The notes below the pieces were generated by a model. The model did not search any database and had not been told where the DNA came from. It saw nothing but the letters and a program-made list of their open reading frames with translations. A DNA stretch of 31,396 nt from a virus: IMG/VR virus record IMGVR_UViG_3300028743_000201, positions 1 through 31,396 of that record; one strand, 5' to 3'. Made by a program: the position numbers and the translations under genes. Shown one piece after another: positions 14,721 to 26,916 of this stretch (within the stretch, counting starts at the first letter, position 1; each line of letters starts with the position of its first letter).

Positions 14721-14735
14721 AGTTAGGTGACGATC

Positions 14736-15566
14736 ATGACTGTAGGAAATGATGAAAATGATGCTCTGATGCCGATCCAGCCCACGATGCCACCGGCGCC
14801 GTGGCAGGGGGGCAAGCGCAGCCTTGCGGGCAAGCTGTCCGATCTGATCGCGGCGGTGCCGCATGCGCGTTATGTTGAACCCTTCGTCGGCATGGGCGGT
14901 GTGTTCTTCAGGCGGCAGGCAAAGCCCAAAATGGAAGTGATCAACGACATCAACCGCGATGTGGTCAATCTCTTCCGCCTCCTCCAGCGCCACTATCAGC
15001 AGCTGCTCGATACGCTCAAATGGCAACTCTGCTCACGCGCCGAGTTCGACCGCCTGTTGAATGTCGATCCCGATACGCTGACCGATCTGGAGCGCGCCGC
15101 GCGCTTTCTTTACCTCCAGCGCACTGGTTTCGGTGGCAAGGTTGTTAAGCAAAGCTTCGGTGTGAGCTATACGTCTGGTGCTAGCTTCAACCTGACCAAG
15201 CTGGTGCCGATCCTTGAGGATGTGCACGAGCGCCTAGCCGGTGTCCTGATCGAGCGCCTGCCTTACGCCGACTGCATCCGCAAATATGATGCCAAGCCCA
15301 ATACCCTGTTCTATCTCGATCCGCCCTACTGGGGCTGCACAGATGACTATGGCAAGAACCTCTTCGAGGCAGCCGATTTCGAGAGGATCGCCGATCTGCT
15401 TGGCCAGATCCAGGGCAGCTTCATTCTCTCGATCAACGACGTGCCCGAGATCCGCGAAATCTTCCGTGGCTACCATCAGGCCGAGGTCAGTTTGCACTAC
15501 GGTGTTGGCGGTGGGCAGCGTCCGGCGCGAGAGCTGATCATCTCCAATCGCCCCCTACCAACCTAA
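14736..15566 (+). CDS. Dam-like D12-class DNA adenine methyltransferase
   Basis: A 276-residue methylase of the D12 (Dam/DpnM) class. In order: motif X PWQGGKRSL (about 22-30), AdoMet motif I VEPFVGMGG (47-55), a target-recognition stretch with LYLQRTGFGGK (126-135) and SFGVSYTSG (about 140-148), and catalytic DPPY at 195-198. An ARELIISN terminal strand is conserved. Such enzymes often methylate GATC, but the site cannot be deduced. ATG 14736 has AGGTGA upstream; GTG 14727 would add three residues. It interrupts the portal-gpF gene order of Mu, with structured spacers of 118 and 122 bp on either side, so it looks like acquired cargo. Confidence 0.9.
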   Translation: MTVGNDENDALMPIQPTMPPAPWQGGKRSLAGKLSDLIAAVPHARYVEPFVGMGGVFFRRQAKPKMEVINDINRDVVNLFRLLQRHYQQLLDTLKWQLCSRAEFDRLLNVDPDTLTDLERAARFLYLQRTGFGGKVVKQSFGVSYTSGASFNLTKLVPILEDVHERLAGVLIERLPYADCIRKYDAKPNTLFYLDPPYWGCTDDYGKNLFEAADFERIADLLGQIQGSFILSINDVPEIREIFRGYHQAEVSLHYGVGGGQRPARELIISNRPLPT

Positions 15567-15688: not shown

Positions 15689-16942
15689 GTGCCACATCCG
15701 TCTACATTGTCCGGCGCATTTGCCCAACCCTTCCCCGAGCAAGTGGCATTCTTGCGCCAGAAGCTGGGCAACCTCGTGCCCACGACGGCATGGGATGACA
15801 TGGAGGGGGCCGACCATGACACCGGCTTTATGGTCGCGGGCGCGGTGAAGGCCGATCTCTTGACCGATCTGGCCGCAGCAACCGACAAGGCTATTGCCGA
15901 GGGGCGAGGCATTGAGGAGTTCCGGCGCGACTTTCGCGATACCGTAGCCAAGAACGGTTGGACAGGATGGACCGGCGAGGGATCGGTCAAAGGGGAGGCG
16001 TGGCGCGTCGGAGTGATCTACCGCACCAACTCTTACACGTCCTACGCCGCAGGGCGACATGCCCAGTTGCTGGATGGTGATTTCAAATACTGGATCTATC
16101 GCCATGGGGCGAGCCGTGAACCGCGTGTCGAGCATTTGTCCTGGACCGGCCTCGCGCTGCCGCCTAGCCATCAATTCTGGGTGACCCATTATCCGCCATC
16201 GGACTGGGGCTGCTCCTGCTATGTTGTCGGCGCTAGTTCAGATCGGATGGTGGCGCGTCTTGGGGGTGATCTTTCCAAAACGCTGCCCGACAACTGGCAG
16301 AAGCGCGATCCCAAGACGGGCGAGATGATGGGTATAGGCAAAGGCTGGTCCTATGCGCCCGGTGCCAGCGTGGCAGGCACAGTGAGCGCGATGGCTGGGA
16401 AAGTTCGCAATTGGGACTATGCCACAGCAAAGGCCTTTATGAGTAGCCTTCCGCAGCCGCAGGTTGATGCATTATCACAAAGCTACCGAGCGCTGCCCAG
16501 CACTGCCGATGATGCGCGTCGTTTCGCCCAGGCCGTTTTGGATGAACGCGCTCCGGCAGGTGGGGCGGTTGTTCGCACGCTGGGCATTGTGCCATCGGCA
16601 CAGGCTGATGAGATCCTGGCACTGGCTGGGCGGAATGTTTCAGGTTTTGACTTCAGGCTGGCACCTGATGCTGTGCGCCATATCAAGTCCAATCATGGTG
16701 ATGCAGCCACAGAAGCGCCGCGCGGACAAGTTCCGGTCTCAGCCGCAGACTATGCTAATTTGCCCGCTATTCTCTCACAGCCCGATGCCATCACTGGCCC
16801 GGACGTGTCAGATATCGGTGAGATGCTAATCCACTACACGCGGGCGATCGCGGGCAAGCGCTACACGGTCACACTGGCAATAAACCGTGCCTATCGCTCG
16901 CTGTCTCTCAAGACCATGTTCATCGGTAAAGGGAAGCCCTGA
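15689..16942 (+). CDS. gpF head morphogenesis protein fused to nuclease-toxin-like domain
   Basis: A 417-residue Mu gpF-type (MuF/SPP1 gp7) minor head protein. The N-terminal two thirds carry the family pattern: FRRDF, YRTNSYTSYAAGRHAQL (111-127), REPRVEHLSW (143-152), and HQFWVTHYPPSDWGCSCYVV (161-180). After a linker, residues about 296-413 form a separate domain (FDFRLAPDAVRHIKSNHGD, then ADYANLPAILSQPDAITG and SLSLKTMFIG). This follows the layout of the PBECR/MuF-C nuclease-like domains known from phage MuF proteins, with His331 and His336 as candidate active-site residues. Such domains are thought to be RNase-like toxins carried in virions. GTG start 15689; no good SD is seen. Confidence 0.85.
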   Translation: MPHPSTLSGAFAQPFPEQVAFLRQKLGNLVPTTAWDDMEGADHDTGFMVAGAVKADLLTDLAAATDKAIAEGRGIEEFRRDFRDTVAKNGWTGWTGEGSVKGEAWRVGVIYRTNSYTSYAAGRHAQLLDGDFKYWIYRHGASREPRVEHLSWTGLALPPSHQFWVTHYPPSDWGCSCYVVGASSDRMVARLGGDLSKTLPDNWQKRDPKTGEMMGIGKGWSYAPGASVAGTVSAMAGKVRNWDYATAKAFMSSLPQPQVDALSQSYRALPSTADDARRFAQAVLDERAPAGGAVVRTLGIVPSAQADEILALAGRNVSGFDFRLAPDAVRHIKSNHGDAATEAPRGQVPVSAADYANLPAILSQPDAITGPDVSDIGEMLIHYTRAIAGKRYTVTLAINRAYRSLSLKTMFIGKGKP

Positions 16943-21551: not shown

Positions 21552-22493
21552 ATGCCTACGCCTGATCCCAAATATTGGAAGACCAAGGTGCTGCTCGCCA
21601 AGATCGAGACCGCCTATGGCACCGACTCCACGCCCACGGGCGCTGCCAATGCGATCTTGGCGAGCGAAGTCACTTTCCAGCCGATGGAAGGAGAAGTGGC
21701 CAAGCGCAACATCGAAACGCCCTGGCTTGGGACGCAGGCCGCCGTGCTGACAGCGTTCAAGTCCATGATCACCTTTTCGGTCGAACTGGTCGGGTCGGGC
21801 ACGGCGGGCACCGCGCCGCTGTGGGGGCCATTGCTGCGCGCCTGCGCCGCCGCCGAAACGGTGACTGCCGCAACGAAGGTGGAATACACGCCGATCACCA
21901 AGAACATGGAGTCGGTCACGCTCTATTTCGACGTGGATGGCACCAAGCATGTGATGACTGGCGCGCGGGGCAATTGCACCATCAAGGCCGATGCGAATGG
22001 CATTCCGGTCGCCACCTTTATCATGACCAGTCTGTTCACGATCCCTACCGAGGCTGCGCGCCCGGTGCCGGTTTACACCGGATTCAAGGATCCGCAGGCC
22101 GCCAACAGCACCAACACCACGCTGTTCACCATCGGCGCCACGGCCATGGCTCTGCGCTCGCTGGAGTTCGATTTTGGCAATGATGTGCAGGTGCGCAATC
22201 TGATCGGTTCGGATGCGGTGCGGATCGTGGATCGCGAATGCTCGCTCAAGACGCAGGTCGAGGCGATCGCGCTCACCTCTTACGACCCCTACACCATCGC
22301 CCGCGCAGGCACCAAGCAGGCAGTGGCCTTGCAGCACCACACTGTCGCCGGGTCCAAATTTCGGCTCGATTTCAGCAATGCCCAGCAGTTGCTGCCTTCT
22401 TACCAGGAGCAAAATGGCATCGCCGAATGGCCGCTCTCGTTTCTGCCATTGCCCACCAGCGGCAATGACGACTGGAAAATCACGCTCACTTAA
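21552..22493 (+). CDS. Major tail tube protein, siphovirus type
   Basis: A 313-residue protein with the phage tail tube pattern: KTKVLLAKIETAYGTDSTPTGAANAIL (about 10-36), then VTFQPMEGEVAKRN, alternating strands, VTLYFDVDGTKHVMTGARGNCTIKADANGIPVATF and a DYPYTI-like 'SYDPYTIARAG'. No sheath gene is near, so the tail is non-contractile. The tube forms the DNA channel. Start abuts the previous stop. Confidence 0.87.
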   Translation: MPTPDPKYWKTKVLLAKIETAYGTDSTPTGAANAILASEVTFQPMEGEVAKRNIETPWLGTQAAVLTAFKSMITFSVELVGSGTAGTAPLWGPLLRACAAAETVTAATKVEYTPITKNMESVTLYFDVDGTKHVMTGARGNCTIKADANGIPVATFIMTSLFTIPTEAARPVPVYTGFKDPQAANSTNTTLFTIGATAMALRSLEFDFGNDVQVRNLIGSDAVRIVDRECSLKTQVEAIALTSYDPYTIARAGTKQAVALQHHTVAGSKFRLDFSNAQQLLPSYQEQNGIAEWPLSFLPLPTSGNDDWKITLT

Positions 22494-22502
22494 GAGGTTC
22501 TT

Positions 22503-22826
22503 ATGTTCAAGGTTGTTTCCGAACCCACGTTTACCCATCCGGTCAAGGTCATGGTCCCCGTCGATGGCGGCCATGTCGAGCAGACCTTCAAGACCAAGTT
22601 CCGCGTATTACCGCTCGACGATGAGGATGCCGATGCCAACGAGCAAAGCGAGCGGGCCACCCTGCGCCGTGCGATCGTCTCGATGTCCGATCTGACTGGC
22701 GATGATGATCAGCCGGTCGAATATTCCGATGGCCTGCGCGACCAGCTGATCGCCGTGCCCTATGTCCGGATCGCACTGATGCGAGCCTACATCTCGGCAG
22801 TAGCCAAGGCTCGCGTGGGAAACTGA
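22503..22826 (+). CDS. Tail assembly chaperone, short (G-like) form
   Basis: A 107-residue acidic protein, MFKVVSEPTFTHPVKVMVPVDGGHVEQTF, followed by charged helical segments (LDDEDADANEQSE). It stops at TGA 22824-22826. Small chaperones just upstream of the tape measure coat it during tail assembly; most siphophages produce a second, longer form by frameshift, and the signals for that are present here. Confidence 0.82.
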   Translation: MFKVVSEPTFTHPVKVMVPVDGGHVEQTFKTKFRVLPLDDEDADANEQSERATLRRAIVSMSDLTGDDDQPVEYSDGLRDQLIAVPYVRIALMRAYISAVAKARVGN

Positions 22827-23185
22827 AACTCGCCGCTCGCCACTGGGCGGGCGGCGGCAAGCGCGATTATTCGAATGCCGCGAAGGAGGCCCGCGAATTT
22901 GGCATCCCCGAGGAAGTCGTTGCCCGCCTTGAAGTCAGCGATCGCAGCGATGACTTGGAGGTTTGGCCCGAAAACTGGCCCTCGGTTTTGGCTTTCCTCG
23001 CGGTATCGACCCAGTGGCGGATGATCGGGCGGGCGGATGGATCGACCTATTGGCAAGGCCTTGATTATGCCGCCGTCGCCGCCCGCCTCGCTGGCACTGG
23101 CCTATCGCAAGAGTTGTGGGGCGATCTGGCCATTATGGAGGCAGCGGCCCGCAATCGTCTCAATGGCATCATGGAAAACGACTGA
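22503..23185 (+). CDS. Tail assembly chaperone, -1 frameshift extended (G-T) form
   Basis: Frame -1 stays open from before the short form's stop to 23185 and encodes a DUF1799-like tail (EVWPENWPSVLAFLAV, then STQWRMIGRADGSTYWQGLDYAAVAARL). The join is (22503-22823, 22823-23185), 227 residues in total. It has no credible start of its own (only TTG at 22955). The heptamer GGGAAAC and a hairpin mark the slip site. In lambda, gpG and gpGT both bind the tape measure during tail assembly. Confidence 0.87.
22817..22856 (+). promoter_or_regulatory. Programmed -1 frameshift signal
   Basis: G GGA AAC (22817-22823) has the X XXY YYZ form in the correct frame and lies directly before the TGA. Seven bases on, an 11-bp stem (22831-22841 with 22846-22856, one T-G pair) closes an ACTG loop. 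Heptamer, spacing and stem are all classical for -1 frameshifting. Confidence 0.9.
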
Positions 23186-26100
23186 TGGCGCTTAAAACCT
23201 CTCTTGTGATCACGGGCGACAGCGCATCAGCCACGACTGCACTGCGGCAGGTCGAAGCTGGCTTGGACGCAGTCGATGGCGCTGCCCAAACAACTGGGGC
23301 CACCATTAACAGTGCGATGATGGCTGCCGTGAGTGCGATTGCCCAGAATACGGGCACCACCAATCAGCTGATCGCTGCGATGATCGCTGGGACCAATGCA
23401 GCACGACAAAAAGCTGATGCCGTTGATGAGGTCGCTCGGGCCATGCGTGCAGCGGCACAAGCAGCCAATGATAATGCCAGGGCAGATGCCGCTCTGACCC
23501 AGCAGGCGTCATCATTGCGCGCGGCGATCGACCCGATGTATGCGGCCCAGCAGCGTTTCAATCAGCAAATGGACGTTGCCGAAGAGCTGCTAAAGGCGGG
23601 CGCGATTGCCGAGCGCGAATATGCGGCCGCCATTGCTGTGGCTCGCCAGCAGTTGCAGGATCATGCGCGCGCTGTCGCAGGCAATGGCACGGCAGTTGAT
23701 CAGGCGGCGGGAAAAAATAAGCAGGCCGCTGCCGGTTACATCAACCTAGGCCGCCAGATGCAAGACGTCGCTGTGATGGCACAGGGCGGGATGAGCCTCG
23801 GCTCGATCATCTCCACCCAAGGTGGCCAGATTGCCGATGCTGTCCAGCAGATGGGCGGGCGGTTTTCGGGGCTTGCTTCGTTTCTGGCTGGGCCGTGGGG
23901 TGCTGCGGTTATCGTTGGCACAAGCCTGCTTGCCAATTTTGCTTCCGGTTTGCTGCACACTGGCGAGGCCGCCGAGGATGAGCTGGGAAAGTTGAAGAAA
24001 AACGCCCAGCAGACTGATGCCACGCGCCGCGCTAAGGAGATCTTCGCAAAATCCGAAGATGGCGTGCGCAATGCGATCCTTGATCAGAAAGAGGCGCTGG
24101 ATAAGCAGGTTAAGTCTCTGCGATCTGCGGCGCAACAGGCCTTGGAAACTGCGAATGCGAACTATGCCAATGAAATGAAAATTCGGAATGCGACCAAGGC
24201 CATGCTGGAACAGGCCTTGGCGCAAGAAGCCATTGCGGCCAAGAATGTCTCAAAAGGCGGTGATGGCACTGTCGGCGGCGATGAAGCTGCATTCGGCGCC
24301 CTGCAAGGCACTAGCAAGCGCACCCAGCTGCTAACGGAACAACTCAAGCAACAGAATGCGGCGCTGGCGGCTGCGGCGAGCAGCCGCACGACTGCCCAGA
24401 GCCTTTACGATGTAGAGGAGGGCAAGAAGGCTGCTGATCCGCTTGAGGCGATCAAAAAGAAGTATGAAGGGTCAGGCGGCCTGATCGAGCAGGCGCGCCA
24501 ACGCGCAGTGGCCGAAGGTCTTGTGGGGGCCGCGTTGCAGCAACAGGTCGCAGAAATTTCCAAGCAGGAAAAGGCCGAAGAGGATGCGGCAAGGAAGCGC
24601 CGCAAGAAGCCTAATGACCCTACCGCCTCCGCCATAAAATTGGAAGATGGCGCCGAGCAACGCCTTGCGAAGCTAGCCAACCAGTATGCCGATCTGCCGA
24701 GCGGTGTGCAGAAGGCCAATGCCGCGCTGCTGGATTTGAACGCCATCCAGAAGGAGATTACCGAGCGCGCTGCGAAAAAGGGCGGCGGGGTCATCAATGT
24801 GGCCAAGTGGCTGGGCGATATCCAGACGGTGCGTGATGCCATCAATCAGCAGATGACCAAGCCGTTTGAGGATTACATCAAAAAAGGCGCGGAGGCGGCG
24901 CAGGTCAATAAGCTGGCCGCCGCCGGGCGCGAGGATGAAGCGGCGGCCTTGCAGGTGATTTTTGGCCTGCAGGAGAAGATGAACCCGCTCTCGGCCGAGC
25001 AGACCGAACAGGTGCTCAAGACCGTGCAGGCCCAGCGCGAGCAGGCGCTTGTGCTGCGCGATCAGCGCGCGCTGATCCAAGCCAATGTGCAGGCGGTGAC
25101 ATCGATGCGCACTGCCTTGCAGGATACGGTGGCCAATGCGCTCAAGGGCCGCATGTCCGCCGCCAATGTGCTGGCCTCGATCGGCAATAGCTATGTCAAC
25201 ATCATGTCGCAGCGGATCACCGAGAGCCTGTTTGGCGATGCCCTGCGCTCGCTGGAAAGCCAGGCGGGCGATGGCTTCCAATCGGCGATGGGCCGCGCCT
25301 CAACCAATGTGACCAGTTTTGCGGATGCGGTGCTGGCTGCGACGGCCAAGATCAACGGCGCGCCGGTGTCCGCTGGCGCGGCGGCATCGGTGGGCAAGGT
25401 GGTGGAAACCGCCGAGGGCGGCATTCCGGTAAATTACAATGTGCCCGCCAATGATAACCAAGAGATCGCCGTTACTGCGAAGCCCAAGACCAATGTGTCG
25501 GGCGCCGGTGGCGTGGTAACCAGCCTACTTTCAACAGCAATGCGCGGCCTTGGCATCAGTGTTGGTCAAGGGCTGCAAGATAAGCTGCTGCCAGTGTTCA
25601 CCCGCCTTGAAAAGCGCCTACCCGATGCACTGCAGGGCGCCTTCACGGGCAATACCGCCTCCAAGCTGATCCTTGGCAGTGGATCTAGCAGTGTAGGGTC
25701 CAGTGTTGGTGGCGCTATCGGTCAAAAGATGGGTGAGAAATTCCTTTCTAAGGGCCTTGAGACTATTGCGTCGGGCCTTGGACAGTTTGCTGGTCCGCTG
25801 GGGTCTGTGCTGGGTGGTGTGGTCGGCGGCATGCTGGGCGACCTGTTTACCCCCACGAAGGCGGGCACGACCGTCATCACCAGCACCAGCAAGGATGCAT
25901 CGACCACGGCCAGCACCAGCGAGGTGCAGGCGGGCCTGTCGAATATTTCGACATCGATCCAATCCTCGCTCGATGCCATCGCCTCCAAATTTTCGACTAC
26001 AGTGGGCGATTTCTCGGTCAGTATTGGCCAGTATAAGGATTATTTCCGCGTATCGGCTTCCGGCAGTTCGCATGTCGGTGACAAATATTATCCGAACGGT

Positions 26101-26916
26101 GCCGGTTCAGACATCCTCTACGATGGCACGGACACCGCCGCCGCCGTGATGATCGCCATTCAAAACGCGATTGCGGATGGAGCGATCAGAGGCCTCTCAT
26201 CGGCTGTTCAGAAGGCTCTGGCCAGCAGCTCAAATATCGAGCGCGCGGTGGCCGAGGCGCTCAAAGTGCAGGAGGTCGAGCTGGCCATCGGCGGGCTGGG
26301 CGCGACCATGGAAAAATCGTTCAAGGATCTGGACGCCAAGGCGGCCGAGCGTGTGCGCATCGCCAAGGACTATGGCTTTGACCTGCTCAAGGTTGAGCAG
26401 GTGAATGCCGAGAAGCGCCTGGCCCTGCAGAAGAGCCTACTCAAGGAGCAGGTTGGCAGCCTGCAAGACCTCATCACCGAGATGACCAGCGGGTCACTGT
26501 TTGAGGGCAGTCTTGTTGATCAGCGTGCTGCGATCCTAGCGAAGATTGATGCGGCCAAGGCGGATGTTGCGGCAGGCAAGGATGGCGCGGGCGATGCGCT
26601 TGCCAAGTTGCTAGAGCAGCTCAACACGGTGAGCCGCGATGCCTATGGCACCACCGGCAATTTCGCGACCGACCGCACACTGATCTCTGACACCGCGCGC
26701 GATGCCATCGCCTCGGCCAATGCTGCCATCCAGGCGGCGGCAGATGCGGCAGCTGCAACGATGACGGCCAGCGATACGACTGCCACTCAACTGGATGAGG
26801 CCAATGACCAGCTAGCCAAGATCGCTAGCGCGCTGGGCCTCTCGCTCGACTATCTCAAGGCCATTGCCGCCAATGGCAATATTGCCTCCAGCCTCAAAGA
26901 TGCGGCGGGCTATTGA
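23185..26916 (+). CDS. Tail tape measure protein
   Basis: A 1243-residue protein, by far the longest in the window. Its first 200 residues are Ala/Gln-rich coiled coil (LVITGDSASATTALRQVEAG, then repeated AAQ helices). A conserved hydrophobic segment follows (FLAGPWGAAVIVGTSLLANFASGL, about 230-253) and more coiled coil (about 265-560). A Gly/Ser-rich hydrophobic zone lies at about 830-895 (SVGGAIGQKMGEKF, GSVLGGVVGGMLGDLF). Further helices end the protein. The tape measure sets tail length and is ejected ahead of DNA. ATG 23185 overlaps the frameshift product's stop by one base (TGATG). Confidence 0.93.
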   Translation: MALKTSLVITGDSASATTALRQVEAGLDAVDGAAQTTGATINSAMMAAVSAIAQNTGTTNQLIAAMIAGTNAARQKADAVDEVARAMRAAAQAANDNARADAALTQQASSLRAAIDPMYAAQQRFNQQMDVAEELLKAGAIAEREYAAAIAVARQQLQDHARAVAGNGTAVDQAAGKNKQAAAGYINLGRQMQDVAVMAQGGMSLGSIISTQGGQIADAVQQMGGRFSGLASFLAGPWGAAVIVGTSLLANFASGLLHTGEAAEDELGKLKKNAQQTDATRRAKEIFAKSEDGVRNAILDQKEALDKQVKSLRSAAQQALETANANYANEMKIRNATKAMLEQALAQEAIAAKNVSKGGDGTVGGDEAAFGALQGTSKRTQLLTEQLKQQNAALAAAASSRTTAQSLYDVEEGKKAADPLEAIKKKYEGSGGLIEQARQRAVAEGLVGAALQQQVAEISKQEKAEEDAARKRRKKPNDPTASAIKLEDGAEQRLAKLANQYADLPSGVQKANAALLDLNAIQKEITERAAKKGGGVINVAKWLGDIQTVRDAINQQMTKPFEDYIKKGAEAAQVNKLAAAGREDEAAALQVIFGLQEKMNPLSAEQTEQVLKTVQAQREQALVLRDQRALIQANVQAVTSMRTALQDTVANALKGRMSAANVLASIGNSYVNIMSQRITESLFGDALRSLESQAGDGFQSAMGRASTNVTSFADAVLAATAKINGAPVSAGAAASVGKVVETAEGGIPVNYNVPANDNQEIAVTAKPKTNVSGAGGVVTSLLSTAMRGLGISVGQGLQDKLLPVFTRLEKRLPDALQGAFTGNTASKLILGSGSSSVGSSVGGAIGQKMGEKFLSKGLETIASGLGQFAGPLGSVLGGVVGGMLGDLFTPTKAGTTVITSTSKDASTTASTSEVQAGLSNISTSIQSSLDAIASKFSTTVGDFSVSIGQYKDYFRVSASGSSHVGDKYYPNGAGSDILYDGTDTAAAVMIAIQNAIADGAIRGLSSAVQKALASSSNIERAVAEALKVQEVELAIGGLGATMEKSFKDLDAKAAERVRIAKDYGFDLLKVEQVNAEKRLALQKSLLKEQVGSLQDLITEMTSGSLFEGSLVDQRAAILAKIDAAKADVAAGKDGAGDALAKLLEQLNTVSRDAYGTTGNFATDRTLISDTARDAIASANAAIQAAADAAAATMTASDTTATQLDEANDQLAKIASALGLSLDYLKAIAANGNIASSLKDAAGY

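Follow-up and report, generated by a model that had tools for sequence, protein, structure and literature searches.

In the lambda G/G-T system, tail assembly depends on a chaperone and on the longer version of it that a low-level -1 frameshift yields (PMC5009743, accessible passages), and the locus described here resembles that system by arrangement. For the HK97-like tail chaperone cluster, reporter frameshift efficiencies of 6% and 7% are given in the accessible part of PMC3711429. In the gp18/gp19 pair of Burkholderia phage KL1, GGGAAAC lies directly before the TGA of the short form and is followed by a -1 extension, with a predicted stem-loop in the 35 bases downstream, all as in the present locus (PMC3483164, accessible passages). 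Such sites are not universal among tailed phages; none was found in KS10 (PMC2628397) and no clear one in RcZahn (PMC8601537), as far as the available portions of these two reports go. The accessible text of PMC10885494 and PMC4066793 held nothing decisive, and the passages retrieved for DUF1799 by name in a literature word search were without frameshift.

The window, i.e., the whole stretch of viral DNA analysed (31,396 bases), encoded a Mu-type transposase, MuB, a Mu-like portal and protease, and the major head protein gpT, while its tail genes (tail terminator, Phage_tube_2) suggest a non-contractile tail. A D12-class N6-adenine DNA methyltransferase (14727-15566) was located between the portal and gpF-like genes, and the Mu F-like head protein (15689-16942) carried a C-terminal PBECR3 domain (Barnase/EndoU/ColicinE5/RelE-like nuclease family). 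Tail tube, chaperone, DUF1799 part and tape measure followed each other in this order (Table 1), which is the position expected for a frameshift of the G/G-T type.

Table 1. Positions of the features around the chaperone junction in the window.
Feature	Position	Strand	Remarks
Tail tube protein	21552..22493	+	directly upstream of the chaperone ORF; Phage_tube_2, E 1.2e-14
Upstream (G-like) tail assembly chaperone ORF	22503..22826	+	107 aa; ends at TGA 22824-22826
Slippery heptamer GGGAAAC	22817..22823	+	G_GGA_AAC register, in frame with ORF 22503-22826
-1 frame extension (T-like, DUF1799)	22817..23185	+	122 codons from the slip site; stop 23183-23185
Probable stimulatory hairpin	22830..22857	+	predicted fold; loop 22842-22845 (4 nt)
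Tape measure protein	23185..26916	+	phrog_24 (tail length tape measure), E 1.4e-07

The upstream ORF matched phrog_569 (tail, E 6.7e-18) and was 41.8% identical to a protein of Rhodobacter phage RC1; no relatives of it were obtained in the viral-contig search. Its match to Phage_TAC_4 (PF08748) spanned profile positions 6-124 of 124 and stayed below the gathering cut-off (E 0.0012, 19.5 bits against 21.1), so that the ORF resembles this family without being filed as a member. The -1 frame, which the first-pass annotation had called DUF1799-like, proved to match DUF1799 (PF08809) well above the cut-off (E 8.7e-15, 55.2 bits against 26) over residues 44-113 of the -1 product, as well as phrog_680 (tail, E 7.3e-19). 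It was open from 22709 to 23182, i.e., up to the tape measure as had been claimed, and its stop overlapped the tape-measure ATG at 23185 (TGATG). The same overlap was present in all 11 closest loci, as TGATG in 10 and TAATG in L006. In Pseudomonas phage YMC11/02/R656, a gene annotated 'immunity to superinfection' (L105:3023-3610) separates the DUF1799 part from the tape measure. Neither the chaperone nor the DUF1799 part had a match in NCBIfam or in PDB sequence searches up to E 0.1, and Rfam gave no match in the window at gathering scores.

The 3' end of the upstream ORF reads GTG GGA AAC TGA, a register in which GGGAAAC permits re-pairing from GGA AAC to GGG AAA. The heptamer has the X_XXY_YYZ form of G/G-T type frameshifts, in 0-frame register and inside the overlap of the two frames, and the 0-frame TGA adjoins its 3' end, exactly where the first-pass annotation had placed it. 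By itself the heptamer was not rare (2 occurrences in the window versus 2.19 expected). Judged from sequence, it is the combination of register, position and conservation that goes beyond chance, with a slippery heptamer at 105 of 106 junctions versus an adjacent one at none of 1008 control stops.

Relatives were chosen by similarity to the -1 (DUF1799) part, not by the heptamer. The 106 loci comprised the best 80 of 187 in viral contigs, 16 from species genomes, nine from phage records (of 19 records matched by the search) and the window itself; clustering the 92 non-identical ones, many of them closely related, at 80% identity over 90 nt gave 56 groups. The 105 heptamers at the junction were all in register (G_GGA_AAC in 55 loci and A_AAA_AAC in 50, named phages included), and among non-identical loci GGGAAAC was found in 48 and AAAAAAC in 44. 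Counted from the slip site, the -1 frame had at least 70 open codons in 92/92 non-identical loci; upstream, the 0 frame had at least 80, except in three loci that are cut short by the contig end. Frame breaks of such look can come from base-calling errors, and the join could in principle reflect a sequencing error or a gene that is broken; that nearly every relative shares this break, and at this heptamer, contradicts the explanation and leaves it a negligible probability.

The first-pass annotation had named relatives lacking the heptamer yet keeping both frames as evidence against a frameshift. Such relatives were absent from 105 of the 106 loci, but a single one, the viral contig L012, fits the description formally, as its two frames are kept and still stand in a -1 relation. 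It differed from L011 by a 36-bp deletion removing heptamer and stop, plus one mismatch, and was otherwise identical. The deletion may have arisen in assembly or mark a genuine defective allele. GCGT occurs at both edges of the stretch deleted in L012 (around 2487).

Protein conservation switched frame at the heptamer, both frames being conserved on their own side of it. Among the 11 closest loci, amino-acid identity before the site was 0.54 in the 0 frame versus 0.35 and 0.32 in the other frames, while after the site it was 0.64 in the -1 frame versus 0.39 and 0.40, and most differences fell at third positions of the respective frame. Over the first 13 codons past the leucine, the -1 frame reached an identity of 0.82, against 0.55 and 0.62 for the other two frames, which places the onset of the -1-frame constraint at the slip site itself, ahead of the ATG, GTG or TTG starts.

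This last observation bears on the possibility that the DUF1799 part is a protein of its own, made from an internal start (TTG 22955 or the junction CTG at 22823-22825 in the window; GTG, ATG or CTG in relatives), the heptamer being incidental. Public records do present RcapMu50 and S-CBS1 gp14 as separate genes starting 72 nt after the match start, and in RC1 the gene begins on the final base of the heptamer (base 2507 of L100). An ATG, GTG or TTG was found from -30 to +120 in 76/92 loci, with positions such as +72 and +75 recurring within subgroups. Against this stands the protein conservation right beside the slip site. Of the 11 closest loci, 5, including the window, lacked any ATG, GTG or TTG in that interval and the other 6 disagreed on its position; moreover, an internal start leaves the conserved heptamer and its register unexplained. 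We consider an independent protein of this kind very improbable, although an additional internal start may exist in many relatives, only 16/92 loci being devoid of ATG, GTG and TTG from -30 to +120. In the window, the first such codon in the -1 frame was TTG 22955, 138 bases past the heptamer start. The earlier statement that frameshifting is the only sensible route was overstated, since a start at TTG 22955, residue 47 of the -1 product, would keep most of the DUF1799 match while losing the conserved stretch beside the slip site.

Downstream of the heptamer, positions 22831-22841 were predicted to pair with 22846-22856 (11 pairs, including one U-G), forming the 11-bp stem with a tetraloop noticed before, 7 nt from the heptamer; counting an additional closing U-G pair (22830-22857) shortens the spacer to 6 nt. 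A stem-loop at this distance is common, not universal, in the G/G-T type. The 60-nt stretch folded at -26.8 kcal/mol (z = -3.27 versus dinucleotide shuffles, 2/200 as low). Across the 92 loci, 40-nt segments had a mean folding energy of -14.1 at the heptamer (offset 0) and of -18.6 at offset +10, versus -7.4 to -12.2 at other offsets from -210 to +240. Relative to shuffles of synonymous codons in the -1 frame, the stem stretch had a mean z of -1.58, with 64/92 loci below -1 and 30/92 below -2, while 18/92 loci, the close L003 and L007 included, displayed little or no excess (z above -0.5).

Place and stability of the stem were thus well supported, whereas evidence from covariation, by which the first-pass annotation had proposed to check it, was mixed. 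The 11 closest sequences were too alike to show covariation, and no measure rose clearly above shuffles (86 to 367 of 500 reached it). A wider set of 20 distinct sequences was therefore counted, which leaves out 71 of the 92 non-identical loci and, having been picked for shared stem geometry, leans towards the structure. In this set, 89.6% of the stem cells paired, versus 32.5-55.4% in slid controls, and 18 stem cells had changed on both sides, a number reached by 0/500 shuffles, the score also exceeding 500/500. The double-change cells lay mostly in two columns separating two subgroups and may represent few events; measures less inflated by relatedness (double-change pairs, 479/500; further pair types, 330/500) were not above shuffles.

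Another recoding step might join the two frames, transcriptional slippage for instance, which can look alike and for which the AAAAAAC relatives offer a run of six A. The run in the window is just GGGAAA, a length that is short for polymerase slippage, and both the register and the stem that follows match tandem tRNA slippage; plain readthrough of the TGA would remain in the 0 frame, which is not the conserved one. Other recoding was accordingly given an extremely low probability. All three alternatives, internal initiation, sequencing error and other recoding, were regarded as unlikely.

The in-register heptamer, the switch of conserved frame and the positioned stem support the first-pass reading of a -1 frameshift joining tail chaperone genes. 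We regard a programmed -1 ribosomal frameshift of the lambda G/G-T kind, joining the tail chaperone to the DUF1799 extension, as highly probable (roughly 0.94). The comparison of relatives carries the site, the two frames, their conservation and the folding at the right place; from these we infer that slippage occurs, together with its rate, its stimulation by the hairpin and the roles of the two products. The 107-residue chaperone would come from most ribosomes, which read GGA AAC and terminate at the TGA. In a minority, probably delayed by the hairpin, both tRNAs would shift back by one base to pair with GGG AAA, and translation would run on to 23182 to yield a fusion of chaperone and DUF1799 part. 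If lambda, whose slip site differs from that of the window, is a guide, the short form may bind along the tape measure protein, and tail tube subunits may be recruited by the fusion. The nine phage records examined give the DUF1799 part as a separate gene; for annotation purposes, it very probably forms the C-terminal portion of a frameshifted tail chaperone.

The position of the 0-frame stop was itself largely conserved. It came directly after the heptamer in 80/92 non-identical loci (61 TGA, 12 TAA, 7 TAG) and in 49/56 groups. In the remaining 12 loci it began 10, 28 or, in ten of them, 31 bases from the first base of the heptamer; in these ten (L025, L037, L050, L057, L062, L063, L066, L069, L074 and L081) the stop at +31 lies in the 3' arm of the hairpin. 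The control stops, i.e., other plus-strand stops of these loci at the end of open stretches longer than 80 codons, included 13 with a slippery heptamer within 24 nt. The next -1 residue after the slip site varied (T, K, I, R, E, A, S) while the adjacent stop stayed. Arginine at the fourth -1 residue was coded AGR in 7/7 loci, versus 8/57 for other arginine codons of the same ORFs, which hints at selection for the stop; the bias is only suggestive, because an adjacent TGA combined with arginine at this residue requires AGR and the seven loci are few and partly related. Selection for a stop immediately behind the slip site in the DUF1799-type chaperone family is a tentative and rather unlikely proposal. 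If true, termination would compete with slippage, and release-factor activity would help to set the ratio of chaperone to fusion and thereby tail assembly.

An increase of frameshift efficiency by the adjacent stop, as had been suggested for this site, is unsupported, and the HIV-1 precedent would, by analogy, point the opposite way. At the HIV-1 slip site, a UGA inserted next to the site lowered apparent frameshifting by about 70%, and extra release factor also lowered it, a caution about the reporter being given in the same paper (PMC4373837, accessible text). Natural stops adjoining the slip site are described there for Rous sarcoma and barley yellow dwarf viruses (PMC4373837). A literature word search, with subscription papers mostly outside it, retrieved no statement on conserved stop adjacency in DUF1799-type chaperones. 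Relatives with and without the adjacent stop form a natural series for the effect of the stop on -1 frameshifting in bacteria.

Among known systems, Rhodobacter phage RcapMu, a Mu-type phage with a flexible non-contractile tail (PMC8601537, accessible passages), has the same gene order in its genes 49/50 (NC_016165) and GGGAAAC with an adjacent stop; its record marks a 'potential -1 frameshift' at the first base of this heptamer, and its DUF1799 part, annotated as a separate gene, is 30.8% identical to that of the window. The Mu-like siphophages of P. aeruginosa, e.g., PaMx73, also have flexible tails and a proposed -1 frameshift in their tail assembly genes, although at a slip site different from that of the window (PMC4378225, accessible passages). 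The phiCbK-like Caulobacter phages carry the same two sites as the relatives studied here, AAAAAAC and, in Colossus, GGGAAAC, in the chaperone gene before the tape measure (PMC3556154, accessible passages). The likeness to KL1 is one of arrangement, a tail gene standing between chaperone and tape measure in that phage, whereas in the window the tape measure overlaps directly (PMC3483164). With the KL1 arrangement already in print, the site in the window is an ordinary case of a well-known device common to its relatives.
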